Shown: piece by piece, positions 26,161 through 34,640 of the stretch
Layout: every line of letters starts with the position of its first letter
Position numbering within the stretch: the stretch's first letter is position 1
Source: an uncultured Synergistales bacterium
Lineage (GTDB): Bacteria > Synergistota > Synergistia > Synergistales > Aminobacteriaceae
Length of the DNA: 52,515 bases
Reading direction: 5' to 3'
Assembly (NCBI GenBank): GCA_905235735.1
Contig: CAJOMU010000002.1
Location: 76,482 to 128,996 of the forward strand
Program-made: the position numbers and the translations under genes
Notes under the pieces: model-generated
What the model saw: only the letters and a program-made list of their open reading frames with translations
Told to the model about the DNA's origin: nothing
Databases searched by the model: none

Positions 26161-27255
26161 ATGAAAATTGCAATTGGATGCGATCATGCTGGCTTCAAAT
26201 TAAAGGACGCAGTTGTAAATTTCCTAAAGGGCCGGCAAATTGATATTGTTGATATGGGAGCCTATGAATACAACAAGGACGATGATTATACCGATGCTGC
26301 TTTCAAAGTTGCAGGAACAATTATAAGTGAGGAAGCTAACGCCGGTATTTTATTATGCGGAACAGGATTCGGAATCTCAATCGCCGCTAACAAAATGCCC
26401 GGCATACGTGCAGTATCATGCTGGAATGTTGAGAGTGCGACAATGGCAAAGGCTCACAATGGCATCAATGTTATTGCTATGGGCGGAAACATCGTAAAAC
26501 CCGAAAATGTTCCTGAAATATTAAGTGCATGGCTTGATACAGAGTTTCAGGGAGGCAGACATACCCGAAGGCTGAACAAAATTGCGATGGCGGAGAAATC
26601 AACGCTGACTATTGCACATCAAGGCGGAGGAAGAGTTGTAATCTTCAATCATCCATTAGTACAGCACAAGGTCAGCATCATCCGTGATGTGAATACGAGC
26701 GTTAAACAGTTCCGTGAATTGCTTCAGGAGATAGCCGGTTTAATGGTCTACGAAATCACACGCAATCTTCCTCTTCATGAAGTCGAAATTCAGACACCAA
26801 TCGAGAAGACAATCGGACATACAATCGAAGGAAGAAAACTCGCAATCGTTCCTGTACTGCGCGCAGGCTTAGGTATGGTTGACGGAATATTACAGCTCGT
26901 GCCTAATGCTAAAGTCGGTCATATCGGACTGTACAGAGACCCCACGACACTTGAACCCGTTGAATATTACTGCAAGCTCCCCTTTGACATTGAAGAACGA
27001 GACATCTTTGTGTTAGACCCAATGCTCGCAACAGGAGGATCATCATCAGCGGCAATTTCACTCATCAAGAAGAGAGGCGGCAAAAAAATTTCGCTCGTAT
27101 GTCTCATCGGTGCACCTGAAGGAATCGACCGAATTCGCAAAGATCATCCTGAAGTTGAGATATTCATTGCGGCATTAGATTCGCATCTCAATGATCACGG
27201 ATACATAGTGCCTGGTCTTGGTGATGCTGGAGACAGGTTGTTCGGAACAAAATAG
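26161..27255 (+). CDS. Fusion: ribose-5-phosphate isomerase B + uracil phosphoribosyltransferase
   Basis: This single 364-aa frame joins two complete enzymes. Residues 1-145 are RpiB, which interconverts ribulose-5-P and ribose-5-P. They show GCDHAGF (6-12), catalytic Cys66 in [19 protein letters not shown], His99 in AKAHN, and GGRHTRR. After a linker of about 12 residues, 158-364 is a full Upp domain, which makes UMP from uracil and PRPP. It shows [37 protein letters not shown], the PRPP loop DPMLATGGS (286-294) and C-terminal [14 protein letters not shown]. All key residues seem intact in both halves. AAAGGAGA precedes ATG 26161. M143 could allow internal initiation of Upp alone, but its SD is poor. 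Confidence 0.93.
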
Positions 27256-29296: not shown

Positions 29297-30559
29297 ATGA
29301 AGATTAACGGAGGAATTCCTCTGAAAGGCACGATTAAAACTCAGGGCGCAAAGAATGCCGCTCTCCCTGTCATGGCCGTATGCTTATTGCTTCGTGGTCA
29401 GACATTAACACTTGATAATGTTCCAGACCTCTATGACATAAACACTATGATTGCATTGATTGAAGATCTCGGAGTTAATGCAGAGATAATGCGCGATGAA
29501 AATAAATCACGGATAGCATTTCATGTACCTGAAGAAATCAAATGGGAAGTCTCCGAAAATTTAGCACGAAAAATGCGAGGTTCATCTTTGCTTCTTGGCC
29601 CTGTACTCGCAAACTGTGGACGTGTATCACTTCCTCTTCCAGGCGGCTGTTCGATTGGAGCACGACCGATTGACCTTCACCTAAAAGGGTTAAAGCAAAT
29701 GGGAGCAGACATAGAGATTCAGAACGGTGTAGTACATGCAAGTGTGAAAGGCAAACTTCGAGGCAGAAGAATATATCTTGATTTTCCTTCCGTAGGCGCA
29801 ACTGAAAATCTCATGATGGCAGCCTCACTTGCACAGGGAGAAACTATCATTGAGAATATCGCCCGTGAACCTGAAATCGATAATCTTGCGGCGGCTTTAC
29901 GATGTATAGGTGTACCCGTTGAACTTGAAGGCACTGGAGGAGTTCGCATTCAGGGAATCGAATCCGTTCATTCAGGACATGAACGCGTAATCCCGGACAG
30001 AATTGAAGCGTGCACATACATTCTCGCAGGCGTAATGACGAACGGACATATAAAGATTGAGGATATTGTTCCGTCTCACATTGATGCAATCCTCGCTAAA
30101 CTTGAAGAGGCCGGAGCAAAATTTTCAGTCAGAAGGAACGTAATCGAAATATTTCCCGCGAAAAAAAGACTTCATCCCATTTCCGTTAAGACAATGCCTT
30201 ATCCAGGTTTCCCAACTGACTCACAGCCTCAAATGGGAGCAGCGTTATCGATTGCACGAGGCGTAAGCACGATTGAAGAGAGTGTTTTTCAGGCGAGATT
30301 TCTGTACGCGCAGGAATTGAATCGAATGGGAGCAGATATTCAAATATCGCGTGATGTTGCAGTCATTCGGGGTGTCGAAAGATTGAAGGGTGCAAATGTC
30401 AAAGCTACAGATTTACGTGCAGGTGCTGCGCTCATCATTGCAGGACTTTCGGCTGAAGGTGAGACTGTCGTTGAGGATATGGTTCATGTCTGGCGTGGAT
30501 ATGAGGCAATCGACAAAAAATTGAAATCACTCGGTGCACAGGTTGAACTCGTCTCATGA
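29297..30559 (+). CDS. murA: UDP-N-acetylglucosamine 1-carboxyvinyltransferase
   Basis: MurA catalyses the first committed step of peptidoglycan synthesis. Lys19-Asn20 in GAKNAALP, the PEP-reactive Cys118 in LPGGCSIGARPID, DRIEACTYILAG, and FPTDSQPQMGA are all present. The 420 aa match the family. Cys118 implies fosfomycin sensitivity. The start is odd: AAAGGAGG at 29268-29275 is 21 bases before ATG 29297. The codon at proper distance in frame is ATA 29285, which would give MENTMKINGG, close to the E. coli N-terminal length. I keep ATG as the conservative choice. Its 3' end overlaps the next gene. Confidence 0.95.
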   Translation: MKINGGIPLKGTIKTQGAKNAALPVMAVCLLLRGQTLTLDNVPDLYDINTMIALIEDLGVNAEIMRDENKSRIAFHVPEEIKWEVSENLARKMRGSSLLLGPVLANCGRVSLPLPGGCSIGARPIDLHLKGLKQMGADIEIQNGVVHASVKGKLRGRRIYLDFPSVGATENLMMAASLAQGETIIENIAREPEIDNLAAALRCIGVPVELEGTGGVRIQGIESVHSGHERVIPDRIEACTYILAGVMTNGHIKIEDIVPSHIDAILAKLEEAGAKFSVRRNVIEIFPAKKRLHPISVKTMPYPGFPTDSQPQMGAALSIARGVSTIEESVFQARFLYAQELNRMGADIQISRDVAVIRGVERLKGANVKATDLRAGAALIIAGLSAEGETVVEDMVHVWRGYEAIDKKLKSLGAQVELVS

Positions 30560-31373
30560 TCTCTCAAGCATAAAAGTCTTCGCATTCGTAGGCCCGGCTG
30601 GAACAGGCAAAAGTCATCGGGCTACACATGTGGCACGTCAGAACGGAATCGATTTCATCATTGATGACGGTCTGGTCATATCACGAGGAAGAATCTTAGC
30701 AGGCAGAAGCGCAAAATCAGAAGTGAATCGACTGCGTGCAATCAAACGCGCTATCTTTGAATACCCTGAACACAGAGACGAAGTTATGAATTATCTTGCA
30801 GAACATCCTCCTGAAAAATTAATGATACTCGCAACTTCAGAAGGAATGATTGAAAAGATAACCGCGAGACTTTGTCTTAATCCCCCTGAAAGAATCATAA
30901 ACATCACAGACGTATCTACACCCGAAGAAATTGAAGCAGCATTACGAGAACGCAGAGAGAAGAAACAACATGTAGTTCCAGTTGCAAAGGCACAGATTGA
31001 ACAGAACTTTGCAGGAAAACTCGTAAGTCAGATACGTGGGTTCTTCAAGGGCAGGGATAAAGACGAATCGCGGAACACAATCGTAAAGCCGTTATTCAGT
31101 TTCAACGGAAAGGTAACGATAGGCTCAGATGCAATTCTTGAGATGACACGTAAACTTTTAGATAGTGAACATGTGAAGAGGATTCGAGAGATAGACCTTG
31201 AGACGTTCGATGACAGAATAGAACTGAGCATCGAAATAGATTTAAATCTCGTAGGAAAAAGCGCACTCTCAATAGCGAAGACATTGCAGAAGAAAATTCG
31301 TACAGGACTAAGTTACTTTACGGGAATGGAAATACGGCGTGTAAACATAAAGGTGAACGAAATATTTTTATGA
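30534..31373 (+). CDS. P-loop protein with Asp23-like C-terminal region, function unknown
   Basis: About 279 aa. A Walker A motif GPAGTGKS lies at 20-27, preceded by strand IKVFAFV. ILATSEGMIEKI near residue 105 looks like a sensor strand of a small AAA- or kinase-like fold. A charged linker spans about 125-185. The last 95 residues (GKVTIGSDAILEMTRKLL, then DRIELSIEIDLN, SALSIAKTLQKKI, MEIRRVNIKVNEI) follow the pattern of the Asp23/Gls24 alkaline-shock domain. That resemblance is by eye. No membrane segment is seen. The start is uncertain: GTG 30534 and TTG 30543 both lie inside murA, and the first well-conserved-looking residue is Lys14. Coupling to murA hints at an envelope-related role. 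Confidence 0.6.
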   Translation: MHRLNSSHDLSSIKVFAFVGPAGTGKSHRATHVARQNGIDFIIDDGLVISRGRILAGRSAKSEVNRLRAIKRAIFEYPEHRDEVMNYLAEHPPEKLMILATSEGMIEKITARLCLNPPERIINITDVSTPEEIEAALRERREKKQHVVPVAKAQIEQNFAGKLVSQIRGFFKGRDKDESRNTIVKPLFSFNGKVTIGSDAILEMTRKLLDSEHVKRIREIDLETFDDRIELSIEIDLNLVGKSALSIAKTLQKKIRTGLSYFTGMEIRRVNIKVNEIFL

Positions 31374-31376
31374 ATC

Positions 31377-31964
31377 ATGATAGATATAAAATCAGCATGG
31401 GAAGAACTTCACAGAAGAATAGAATCATGCACTAAATGTGAATTATGTAATACAAGACACTGTACTGTTCCAGGTGAAGGCCCGATTGACAGCAGGGTTG
31501 TAATCATCGGTGAAGGGCCAGGCCAGGAAGAAGATGAATCCGGGAAGCCGTTTGTAGGCAAGGCAGGAAGATTATTGACGGACATATTAGAGAAAGGAGG
31601 AGGCATAGACAGAAGATCATTGTACATAACGAACATGGTGAAATGCAGACCGCCAGCTAATCGAAATCCTAAACCTGAAGAAATATCAGCGTGCAGAGAT
31701 TTTCTTGAAGCGCAATTACTGTTAATTCATCCCGATATTGTTGTTACTATGGGCAATGTTCCTACACAGCCTCTGTTAAATACGAAGCAGGGCATAACAT
31801 CTCTGAGGGGTCAATGGCAAGATTGGCGTGGAATAAAATTATTTCCTATGTTTCATCCGAGTTATTTACTCCGAAATGAATCAAAAGCAGTGGGAAGTCC
31901 AAGATATTTAATGTGGCAGGACGTAAAAGAACTGAAAGCAGAAATAGATAAACTGAAAAATTAA
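31377..31964 (+). CDS. Family 4 uracil-DNA glycosylase
   Basis: This 195-aa enzyme excises uracil from DNA. Motif 1 reads GEGPGQEEDESGKPFVGKAG and motif 2 HPSYLLR. Cluster cysteines are visible in SCTKCELC (Cys18, Cys21), VKCRPP and SACRDF, so an Fe4S4 cluster is expected. ITNMVKCRPPANRNP is typical of the family. It starts 3 bases after the previous stop with no strong SD, so it is probably translated by coupling. Confidence 0.94.
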   Translation: MIDIKSAWEELHRRIESCTKCELCNTRHCTVPGEGPIDSRVVIIGEGPGQEEDESGKPFVGKAGRLLTDILEKGGGIDRRSLYITNMVKCRPPANRNPKPEEISACRDFLEAQLLLIHPDIVVTMGNVPTQPLLNTKQGITSLRGQWQDWRGIKLFPMFHPSYLLRNESKAVGSPRYLMWQDVKELKAEIDKLKN

Positions 31965-31985: not shown

Positions 31986-32687
31986 TTGACAGACGAAATG
32001 AAGAAACCAAAACACTTAGCAATAATTCTTGACGGTAATGGACGCTGGGCAAAAAAAAGAAACCTTCCGAGATTAATGGGACATCGTGCAGGAGTAAGGA
32101 CACTCGAAAACATGGTGAGACTAGTTAAACGCGAAGGCATTCGATATTTATCAGTGTATGCATTCTCAATCGAAAACTGGAATCGTCCAGTCATGGAAGT
32201 AACTGGCCTAATGAGCTTGTTCAGATATTACATAAAGCGCAAGGTCGATGAGATTAAAGCAGAAGGGGCGAGAATACGTTTCTGCGGACGAAAGGACAAA
32301 CTGCCCGAAGATTTGCTTGAACAAATGAAATGGGCAGAGGATTACACAGCAGACCAGAAGATTATGGATTTCATTCTGTGCATCAATTATGGAGGACGAG
32401 CAGAGATTCTTGATGCGGTGAACTCATTGATAGCTTCAGGTCATAAAGGCAATGTTACGGAACAGGACTTGAGAAATCATTTCTATCTTCCTGATGTGCC
32501 AGACCCAGACCTGATTATACGTACAAGCGGAGAATTGAGACTGAGCAACTTCTGGTTATGGGAAAGCGCATACAGTGAGTACTATTTCACTGATATACAC
32601 TGGCCTGATTTCGACGAGGCGGAACTGAAGAAGGCACTTGATGATTATGCAGGAAGGGAGCGTCGTTATGGCGGGCTCAAGAAGTAA
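31986..32687 (+). CDS. uppS: Isoprenyl (undecaprenyl) diphosphate synthase
   Basis: This cis-prenyltransferase of 233 aa makes the undecaprenyl carrier for cell-wall precursors. Catalytic Asp16 lies in LDGNGRWAKKR, followed by GHRAG, YAFSIENWNRP, FCINYGGRAEI-like ILCINYGGRAE, and RTSGELRLSNFWLWESAYSE. The TTG at 31986 follows AGGAGAG; the first ATG (31998) is too far from it. It leads the uppS-cdsA-dxr run common in bacteria. Confidence 0.96.
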   Translation: MTDEMKKPKHLAIILDGNGRWAKKRNLPRLMGHRAGVRTLENMVRLVKREGIRYLSVYAFSIENWNRPVMEVTGLMSLFRYYIKRKVDEIKAEGARIRFCGRKDKLPEDLLEQMKWAEDYTADQKIMDFILCINYGGRAEILDAVNSLIASGHKGNVTEQDLRNHFYLPDVPDPDLIIRTSGELRLSNFWLWESAYSEYYFTDIHWPDFDEAELKKALDDYAGRERRYGGLKK

Positions 32688-33534
32688 CAGCAAGCTATTC
32701 AATCAGGAGCTAATGACACGAACAATAAGCAGTGTCTTCATTGTGATTGTGATAATTGGCGGCATAAATTACGGGAGCTTTGCGTGGACAATTGTAGCTT
32801 CAATTATTGCAATGTTATCGCTCAGTGAATACTACAGATTGATTCAGAGAATGGATACGTCAGAAGGAAAACGAAAGAACAGAATATCTCCGGGAATGGG
32901 ATATATATTCTCACTTGCATTCCTTATTGCAGCAGTACGTGAGAATCCTCAGCCCATAGTACTTGCAATGATATTAGCGTTGTGTGTGTGCTCAGTATTC
33001 GTTGTTGAAGTCTTCAGGAAGCAATTGACGAAAGGAGCAGAGAGTTATGCACTCAGCAATGCAGGAAGAGTTATATCGGGTGTAATGTACGTAACAGTTC
33101 CTTGGGTCTGCATGATAATGCTTCGAGATTATTCGTTCGGTCGTCAGCTATTGATTACGTTGTTCGTATGCACATGGGGCTGTGATGTAGGAGCATACAT
33201 CGGAGGGAAGTTATTCGGCTCAGTGAAATTGTGCGAGTATGTGAGTCCGGGAAAAACAGTTCAGGGATTTATTGCCGGCATAATAGGAAGTCTGATCGTA
33301 AATGCATGTGCAATATATTATTATAGTCTTCCGTCTTATCCGTTAATCTTAATCGGATTCATCTGCGGGATTGCAGGCCAGGTAGGAGACCTAGCAGAGT
33401 CGTTGATTAAGCGTGAAGCAGGACAGAAAGATTCGGGAAATATTATTCCTGGTCATGGAGGAATGCTCGACCGTTTCGACAGCATATTATTCAATGGATT
33501 ACTCACATACTTAGTGCTGAGGGTGATATTGTAA
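32668..33534 (+). CDS. cdsA: Phosphatidate cytidylyltransferase
   Basis: CdsA makes CDP-diacylglycerol for phospholipids. This 288-aa membrane protein has several hydrophobic helices. It ends with the family signature SLIKREAGQKDSGNIIPGHGG and LDRFDSI, carrying the metal-binding acidic residues. ATG 32668 sits behind GGAAGGGAG and overlaps uppS by 20 bases; the ORF could extend to 32638 but that start has no SD. It shares one base with dxr (TAATG). Confidence 0.95.
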   Translation: MAGSRSNSKLFNQELMTRTISSVFIVIVIIGGINYGSFAWTIVASIIAMLSLSEYYRLIQRMDTSEGKRKNRISPGMGYIFSLAFLIAAVRENPQPIVLAMILALCVCSVFVVEVFRKQLTKGAESYALSNAGRVISGVMYVTVPWVCMIMLRDYSFGRQLLITLFVCTWGCDVGAYIGGKLFGSVKLCEYVSPGKTVQGFIAGIIGSLIVNACAIYYYSLPSYPLILIGFICGIAGQVGDLAESLIKREAGQKDSGNIIPGHGGMLDRFDSILFNGLLTYLVLRVIL

Positions 33535-34640
33535 TGATAAATCTCGGTGTAATTGGCGCAACTGGCAGCGTAGGAAGCTCCGTGATGTCGGTGTGTGAAG
33601 CATGGCCTGATAAAATTCGAGTGAAGGCTCTTGCGGCTAATCACAAATCCGAAAAGCTGAAGGCACTTGCAGAAAAATTTTCGGTTCAGAAAGTTTATGC
33701 ATACGAAGAGACAGGTGAACATGGCCTCGAAGAAATAGCATGTGATTCTGAAATTGAACATGTTGCATTCGTCTCATCAGGTACATCTGCAATTAAGGCT
33801 TTGTGTTCAGCATTGGAGGCAGGAAAGACAGTATCACTCGCAAATAAAGAGAGCATAGTTGCAGCAGGTAAATGGGTGATGCCTCTCGTGAAACATTCTG
33901 AACAGTTGCGTCCTGTAGATAGTGAACATAATGCAATCTGGCAATGTCTGCACGGCGAAGATAAAACGTTCGTGAGGAAAATATATCTCACAGCTTCAGG
34001 AGGGCCATTCAGAAACTTCACGTATGATGAGCTTAAACGTGTTACTCCAGAGATGGCGTTGAAGCATCCAGTGTGGAACATGGGAGCAAAGATTACGATT
34101 GACAGTGCGACACTAATGAACAAGGGAATAGAACTGATTGAAGCGATGTATCTTTTCGGATTAGATTCATTACAGGTTGACGCATTAATATCACCTGGAT
34201 CATTCGTTCATGGACTTGTTGAGTTTGAAGACGGGAGCGTTAAGATGTTAGCGGCTGAACCTGACATGAAACTTCCAGCGGCATCATGTTTGTTCTGGCC
34301 TGAAAGATTTTTCCCGTGTGAATCGTTTAAGAGACCTGCATACGATGTTCATGATGTGAGGTTTGAATTGCCCGACACGAATCGCTTCCCTTCATTGAGG
34401 ATTGCACGTGAAGTTATGCGTATGAAGGGTGCGTATCCTGCTGTGCTTGTTGGTGCAGATGAGGCAGCTGTTGATTCATTCCTGAAGGGTAAGATTGCGT
34501 TCACGGATATTCCTTCGGTTATTGAGGAGACATTGAGCGCATATAAAGGCGATGAGCTTCATGGGATTGATGATGCGATTGAATGCATTGATGAATCGAG
34601 ACGAGAAGCAAAGAGAATTTCAGAACGATTCATGAGATGA
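33534..34640 (+). CDS. dxr: 1-deoxy-D-xylulose-5-phosphate reductoisomerase
   Basis: DXR makes 2-C-methylerythritol-4-P, the committed step of the MEP isoprenoid pathway, and thus feeds UppS. NADPH-binding GATGSVGSSVM is at the N-terminus. LANKESIVAAG, PVDSEHNAIWQCL with metal-binding Asp and Glu, TASGGPF and HPVWNMGAKITIDSATLMNKG follow. The 368-aa length is normal. In many genomes the site-2 protease gene rseP follows; here a strong terminator follows instead. Confidence 0.97.
   Translation: MINLGVIGATGSVGSSVMSVCEAWPDKIRVKALAANHKSEKLKALAEKFSVQKVYAYEETGEHGLEEIACDSEIEHVAFVSSGTSAIKALCSALEAGKTVSLANKESIVAAGKWVMPLVKHSEQLRPVDSEHNAIWQCLHGEDKTFVRKIYLTASGGPFRNFTYDELKRVTPEMALKHPVWNMGAKITIDSATLMNKGIELIEAMYLFGLDSLQVDALISPGSFVHGLVEFEDGSVKMLAAEPDMKLPAASCLFWPERFFPCESFKRPAYDVHDVRFELPDTNRFPSLRIAREVMRMKGAYPAVLVGADEAAVDSFLKGKIAFTDIPSVIEETLSAYKGDELHGIDDAIECIDESRREAKRISERFMR

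Follow-up and report, generated by a model that had tools for sequence, protein, structure and literature searches.

The Asp23/Gls24 family (PF03780: Asp23, YqhY, YloU) is widespread in Gram-positive bacteria, and its members are usually small, free-standing envelope-stress proteins. A related protein, AmaP (NF033218), the membrane anchor of Asp23, carries an Asp23-like domain at its C terminus and is not known to have a P-loop. How the family works is not settled (PMC5437119). In Bacillus subtilis, the gene for YqhY, a free Asp23 protein, lies with accBC, and mutations in acetyl-CoA carboxylase suppress the effect of losing it (PMC5437119).

The protein described here departs from this plan, in that the Asp23 domain forms the tail of a 279-residue P-loop protein. 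Its gene lies in the window, the 52,515-nucleotide stretch of DNA from an uncultured Synergistales bacterium that was analyzed, among the following features:

29297-30559, + strand: murA (Pfam EPSP_synthase, E 3e-97), overlapping the fusion gene by 26 bases
30534-31373, + strand: P-loop/Asp23 fusion gene, GTG start, open reading frame of 279 amino acids, dN/dS about 0.06
30570-30983, + strand: P-loop NTPase (kinase-like) domain, residues 13-150, from the alignment and the AlphaFold2 model
30591-30614, + strand: Walker A motif GPAGTGKS, residues 20-27
30663-30671, + strand: Asp-Asp-Gly, residues 44-46, where strand 2 ends in the AlphaFold2 model
30951-30980, + strand: R140 ... H146-x-x-P149 motif
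30984-31073, + strand: linker, residues 151-180, in part a helix that looks amphipathic by eye, with low pLDDT
31074-31370, + strand: Asp23 domain, residues 181-279, from Pfam, AlphaFold2 and profile comparison
31377-31964, + strand: gene of the uracil-DNA glycosylase superfamily, the constant downstream neighbor in Synergistota
31986-32687, + strand: uppS (undecaprenyl diphosphate synthase)
32638-33534, + strand: cdsA (CTP transferase)
33534-34640, + strand: dxr

The reading frame at 30534-31373 is a real gene. It is under purifying selection, with dN/dS values of 0.068 and 0.056 against the two close relatives for which the ratio was measurable (four others were saturated in synonymous sites), and the nearest sequence matches of its product are from Synergistaceae and related metagenome-assembled genomes. 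An in-frame TTG at position 30543 is as possible a start as the GTG, and both candidates fall within the 3' end of murA. The original prediction, made from the letters of the DNA, was that a Walker A domain and an Asp23-like domain are fused in one protein next to murA, and the fusion is borne out by the continuous open reading frame, the family alignment and structure prediction. In the AlphaFold2 model of the whole protein, a P-loop alpha/beta domain is followed by a confidently modeled C-terminal domain of alpha-beta-beta-alpha-beta order, the stretch between them (residues 144-195) being of low confidence; the earlier placement of the Asp23 part at residues 185-279 was right. We considered whether the linker might form an amphipathic membrane helix, and rejected this: the best-window moment fell within the range of shuffled sequences for most of the 55 aligned family members, and 5% or fewer of the shuffles were as high in 4 of the 55.

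For the window protein taken singly, the match of the C-terminal domain to Asp23 lies just below the curated Pfam cut-off of 28 bits, both for the whole sequence (24.5 bits, E 3.7e-5) and for the C-terminal 101 residues alone (27.3 bits, E 5e-6). Several relatives exceed the cut-off (40.5, 34.1, 29.8 and 28.6 bits), 36 of 40 family C-terminal domains have an Asp23 match with an E value of 0.1 or less (best 2.4e-11), and an hhalign comparison of these 40 domains with eight free-standing or AmaP-like Asp23 proteins, as the original prediction had proposed, gave a probability of 98.6% (E 8.4e-16). Although the evidence from the window protein alone is borderline, the Asp23 assignment holds for the family, and on these profiles the C-terminal domain is homologous to the Asp23 domain. 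Two relatives differ in this respect. In one, from a 1.14 Mb genome that is presumably Treponema-like (L156:3083-3889), the P-loop half is kept, as is the motif of the linker, and no Asp23 match was found, which indicates that the P-loop half can persist without the Asp23 domain; the gene that follows it weakly matches an ATPase subunit model. The other, from a genome we take to be Borrelia-like (L152), gave no Asp23 match at E 0.01 in a single-sequence Pfam scan and aligns with the family over the entire C-terminal domain.

Like AmaP, the family has an Asp23-like domain at the C terminus. The NF033218 model weakly matches 18 of 26 family members, and the window protein, at 19.2 bits, does not reach its curated threshold of 55 bits. 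A 19-residue hydropathy scan detected no AmaP-type N-terminal transmembrane anchor in the window protein, whose maximum is 0.97, as against 2.8-3.3 for the strongly hydrophobic N-terminal segments of three AmaP-like controls; values slightly above 1.6 occur in 5 of the 55 family members. AmaP-like proteins that combine an Asp23-like domain with a strongly hydrophobic N-terminal stretch coexist with the fusion family in a second phylum (L158, L161, L166). The best structural matches of the C-terminal domain model are the cytosolic domains of cation diffusion facilitators such as MamM (Z 11.6, rmsd 2.4 over 77 residues) and YiiP. Sequence identity is about 10% and the fusion protein lacks a transporter part, however, and the fold common to these domains and the Asp23 half shows no function for it.

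The P-loop half is strictly conserved at many positions. The Walker A pattern typical of nucleoside-monophosphate and shikimate-type kinases, GxxGxGK[ST], is present in all 55 members, in which G20, G23, G25, K26, S27, D44, D45, G46, G57, K61, S102, M105, I109, I124, A136, R140, H146, P149 and P186 are invariant; the 18 that fall within the N-terminal domain are also unvaried among 38 aligned N-terminal domains. The invariant charged residues point to an active site rather than a decayed P-loop, and the half looks catalytic from its conservation. Asp-Asp-Gly 44-46 is likely a substrate or metal site, and R140 ... H146-x-x-P149 is a conserved motif to which we would assign a role as well. No curated family names this half: the scattered weak matches to ABC, AAA, AAA_33, IPT and CMP kinase models are those that any Walker A would give.

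Modeled on its own, the N-terminal domain (residues 11-160) reached a pLDDT of 81.5. Its top Foldseek matches were gluconate, shikimate, CMP and adenylate kinases, the best at E 4e-3 and none below 0.001, and VIA-align placed adenylate kinase highest (Z 6.2, rmsd 4.0, 120 aligned residues), level with the RNA kinase Clp1 (Z 6.1), at scores that may reflect only a common arrangement, as Z values below 8 can. These small kinases have in common with the family the Walker A motif, acidic residues after strand 2 and a broadly similar alpha/beta arrangement. Its other motifs (G-x-S-A-K, T-S-x-x-M, R140 and H146-x-x-P) are not theirs, and in a profile comparison with 25 CMP and 15 shikimate kinases from the same taxonomic order, only about 30 columns around the Walker A motif aligned. 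Given the weak fold score and a profile match limited to Walker A, the domain is small-P-loop-kinase-like at best, and its modeled fold is weakly nearest to these enzymes. A Walker A motif followed by Asp-Asp also prompts an HPr-kinase-like reading, which was set aside since only 2 of the 38 N-terminal domains touched Hpr_kinase_C (E 0.027). A PDB sequence match to pyrrolysyl-tRNA synthetase (E 0.19) fell outside the Walker A part, was absent from the profile searches and is ascribed to chance, and de novo designed proteins among the profile matches were uninformative. In 15 Synergistota genomes (L169-L183), shikimate kinase itself lies within long open frames (414-637 amino acids), which suggests fusion with another gene.

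Members of the family were detected in 176 of 185 Synergistota genomes, including all 115 of good quality (at least 90% complete, at most 5% contamination). Outside this phylum, a 26-row profile gave near full-length matches in 41 of 50 genomes of the second phylum, with a 42nd split in two pieces; of 149 genomes in the spirochaete-group phylum, 36 gave a strong match, in one case a partial one, and 4 more a weak one, small genomes included. A search for Spo0A in 7 genomes, made with the second phylum in view, found it in none. One genome of a two-genome phylum carries a member, and in a set of 204 genomes outside Synergistota 2 gave a strong match. A Monoglobus plasmid record also encodes one, annotated as "Asp23/Gls24 family envelope stress response protein." Among viral contigs, 69 pattern matches included no relative. 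In a tree of the 55 sequences, the Synergistota, the spirochaetes and both branches of the second phylum each form one group, the second phylum as a whole not being a single group. These groupings fit old vertical descent better than recent transfer, and the family is best read from its sequences as old, vertically inherited and core in Synergistota.

Gene order around the fusion gene is well kept within Synergistota and within the second phylum, and it changes between phyla. In the window's genus, murA lies directly upstream in 49 of 49 loci (19/19 and 30/30, two sets that overlap in source genomes). The arrangement is looser in other Synergistota families, in which murA is directly adjacent in 4 of 20 loci and separated by a gap of about one gene in the remaining 16; the two gap genes that were read are both class I/II aminotransferases. 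Downstream, the uracil-DNA glycosylase gene comes next in 20 of 20 other-family loci and in 48 of the 49 from the genus, the exception having none within the 1,500 bases past the fusion gene. A DNA glycosylase gene also flanks the Monoglobus member, together with Rex; a general link to DNA glycosylases was discarded, as none was seen among the neighbors read elsewhere. Upstream in the window, a single open reading frame at 26161-27255 encodes a ribose-5-phosphate isomerase B/uracil phosphoribosyltransferase fusion; in 18 of the 19 other-family loci, out of 20, that had a match, one alignment 1,000 bases long or longer runs across it. The window genome also contains a separate, free-standing Asp23 gene (L155:5870-6740), followed by a 163-amino-acid open reading frame with no Pfam match, in the order efp-asp23-x-nusB (efp and nusB named by reading, not by family search).

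In the second phylum, the fusion gene is always placed ahead of a methylmalonyl-CoA decarboxylase or mutase gene, the next gene being mmdA in 9 and mcmA in 10 of 19 loci (L115-L134, omitting L130, which belongs to another phylum), and prfB or a glutamate dehydrogenase gene is upstream in most. Among 18 spirochaete loci with a clean open reading frame call, an RluA-type pseudouridine synthase gene precedes the fusion gene in 8, and murC follows it in the Borrelia-like genome; L135 and L148, which lack such a call, were left out of the neighbor tallies and kept in the alignment and tree. In the two-genome phylum, the next gene encodes RNase E/G. No single gene partner was constant across the phyla in the loci compared.

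The likeliest reading, to which we give a probability of roughly 35%, is that the protein regulates the flux of lipid precursors or acyl-CoA in an ATP-dependent manner. It is favored by the tie between YqhY and acetyl-CoA carboxylase, taken together with the methylmalonyl-CoA genes of the second phylum, another gene set of the acyl-CoA carboxylase type, and with the polyprenyl and phospholipid genes uppS, cdsA and dxr beside the gene in Synergistota. Under this model, the P-loop half would bind ATP and either transfer phosphate or act as a switch, using Lys26/Ser27, Asp44-Asp45, Lys61, Arg140 and His146. A flexible linker would tie it to the Asp23 half, which may dock the whole protein to a partner enzyme or to other Asp23 proteins, or bring it close to the membrane, the role supposed for free-standing Asp23 proteins. 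In this way, ATP would tune the flux of lipid precursors or the flux through acyl-CoA carboxylase. Nevertheless, neighbors differ by phylum and many are translation or RNA genes, so that lipids are not the only direction in which the genomic context points. The weak kinase-type fold score, the profile match limited to Walker A and the persistence of the P-loop half without Asp23 in the Treponema-like genome also count against this reading.

Those genes (prfB, the RluA-type synthase, pcnB and RNase E/G, in several lineages) would fit an NTPase that associates with RNA or the ribosome and follows the plan of Era or EngA, with a P-loop domain followed by a small, RNA-touching KH-like alpha/beta domain. 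The same could be said of the efp and nusB surroundings of the free-standing Asp23 gene, and Era was the best full-length Foldseek match (E 6.6e-5), with EngA third. The Era match has a TM-score of only 0.2 and an rmsd of 16.5, however, and the C-terminal domain is Asp23 by profile, its closest structures being cation diffusion facilitator domains rather than KH; we consider this reading unlikely, if credible. A similar weight, that of a serious but minority candidate, can be given to a small-molecule or nucleotide kinase that acts on a metabolic substrate and uses Asp23 only for oligomerization. The kinase-type fold neighbors of the N-terminal domain and its invariant acidic pair and basic residues suit such an enzyme, but two things tell against it: outside Walker A the profiles of CMP and shikimate kinase show no resemblance to this domain, and no neighboring gene recurs often enough to point to a single substrate.

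The protein stays while its neighborhood changes completely between phyla, and it may instead be a housekeeping factor whose neighbors say nothing about its function, such as a general stress protein in which the Asp23 part is kept in a state that depends on ATP. Gene order is nonetheless well kept within Synergistota and the second phylum, which usually means co-expression at least, and we find this account rather unlikely. Least probable, and by our estimate very improbable, is a role alongside MurA in regulating the synthesis of wall precursors, along the lines of the original prediction. The murA overlap and the unbroken adjacency within the genus stand, and the overlap gives co-translation in the window's lineage without defining function. 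The special tie to murA did not survive wider comparison, in that the genes are set apart in most loci of other Synergistota families and murA was not seen near the fusion gene in the other phyla examined. That the two genes are neighbors is a chance of local gene order and does not define the family; murC beside the Borrelia-like member is a weak echo of a wall link.

Each part of the protein is of a known kind. Their constant pairing, the way it is distributed and the motifs peculiar to it appear to lack any family name, in agreement with the original prediction; no Pfam or NCBIfam entry covers the whole protein, and no account of a P-loop/Asp23 fusion was found in titles and abstract openings among the literature matches listed. 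No named family exists for a protein that all the good-quality Synergistota genomes examined share and that some of the spirochaetes also carry. With an Asp23 domain joined in nature to a conserved P-loop domain, the Asp23 family gains an associated biochemical activity that is open to testing. Conceivably, though we regard it as distinctly unlikely, these proteins form an ATP-operated branch of the Asp23 system, in which a kinase or switch domain within the protein determines the state of the Asp23 module and thereby governs the flux of lipid precursors or the flux through biotin-dependent acyl-CoA carboxylases. If true, such a branch, spanning Synergistota, spirochaetes and a further phylum, would provide the first enzymatic handle on the Asp23 family.
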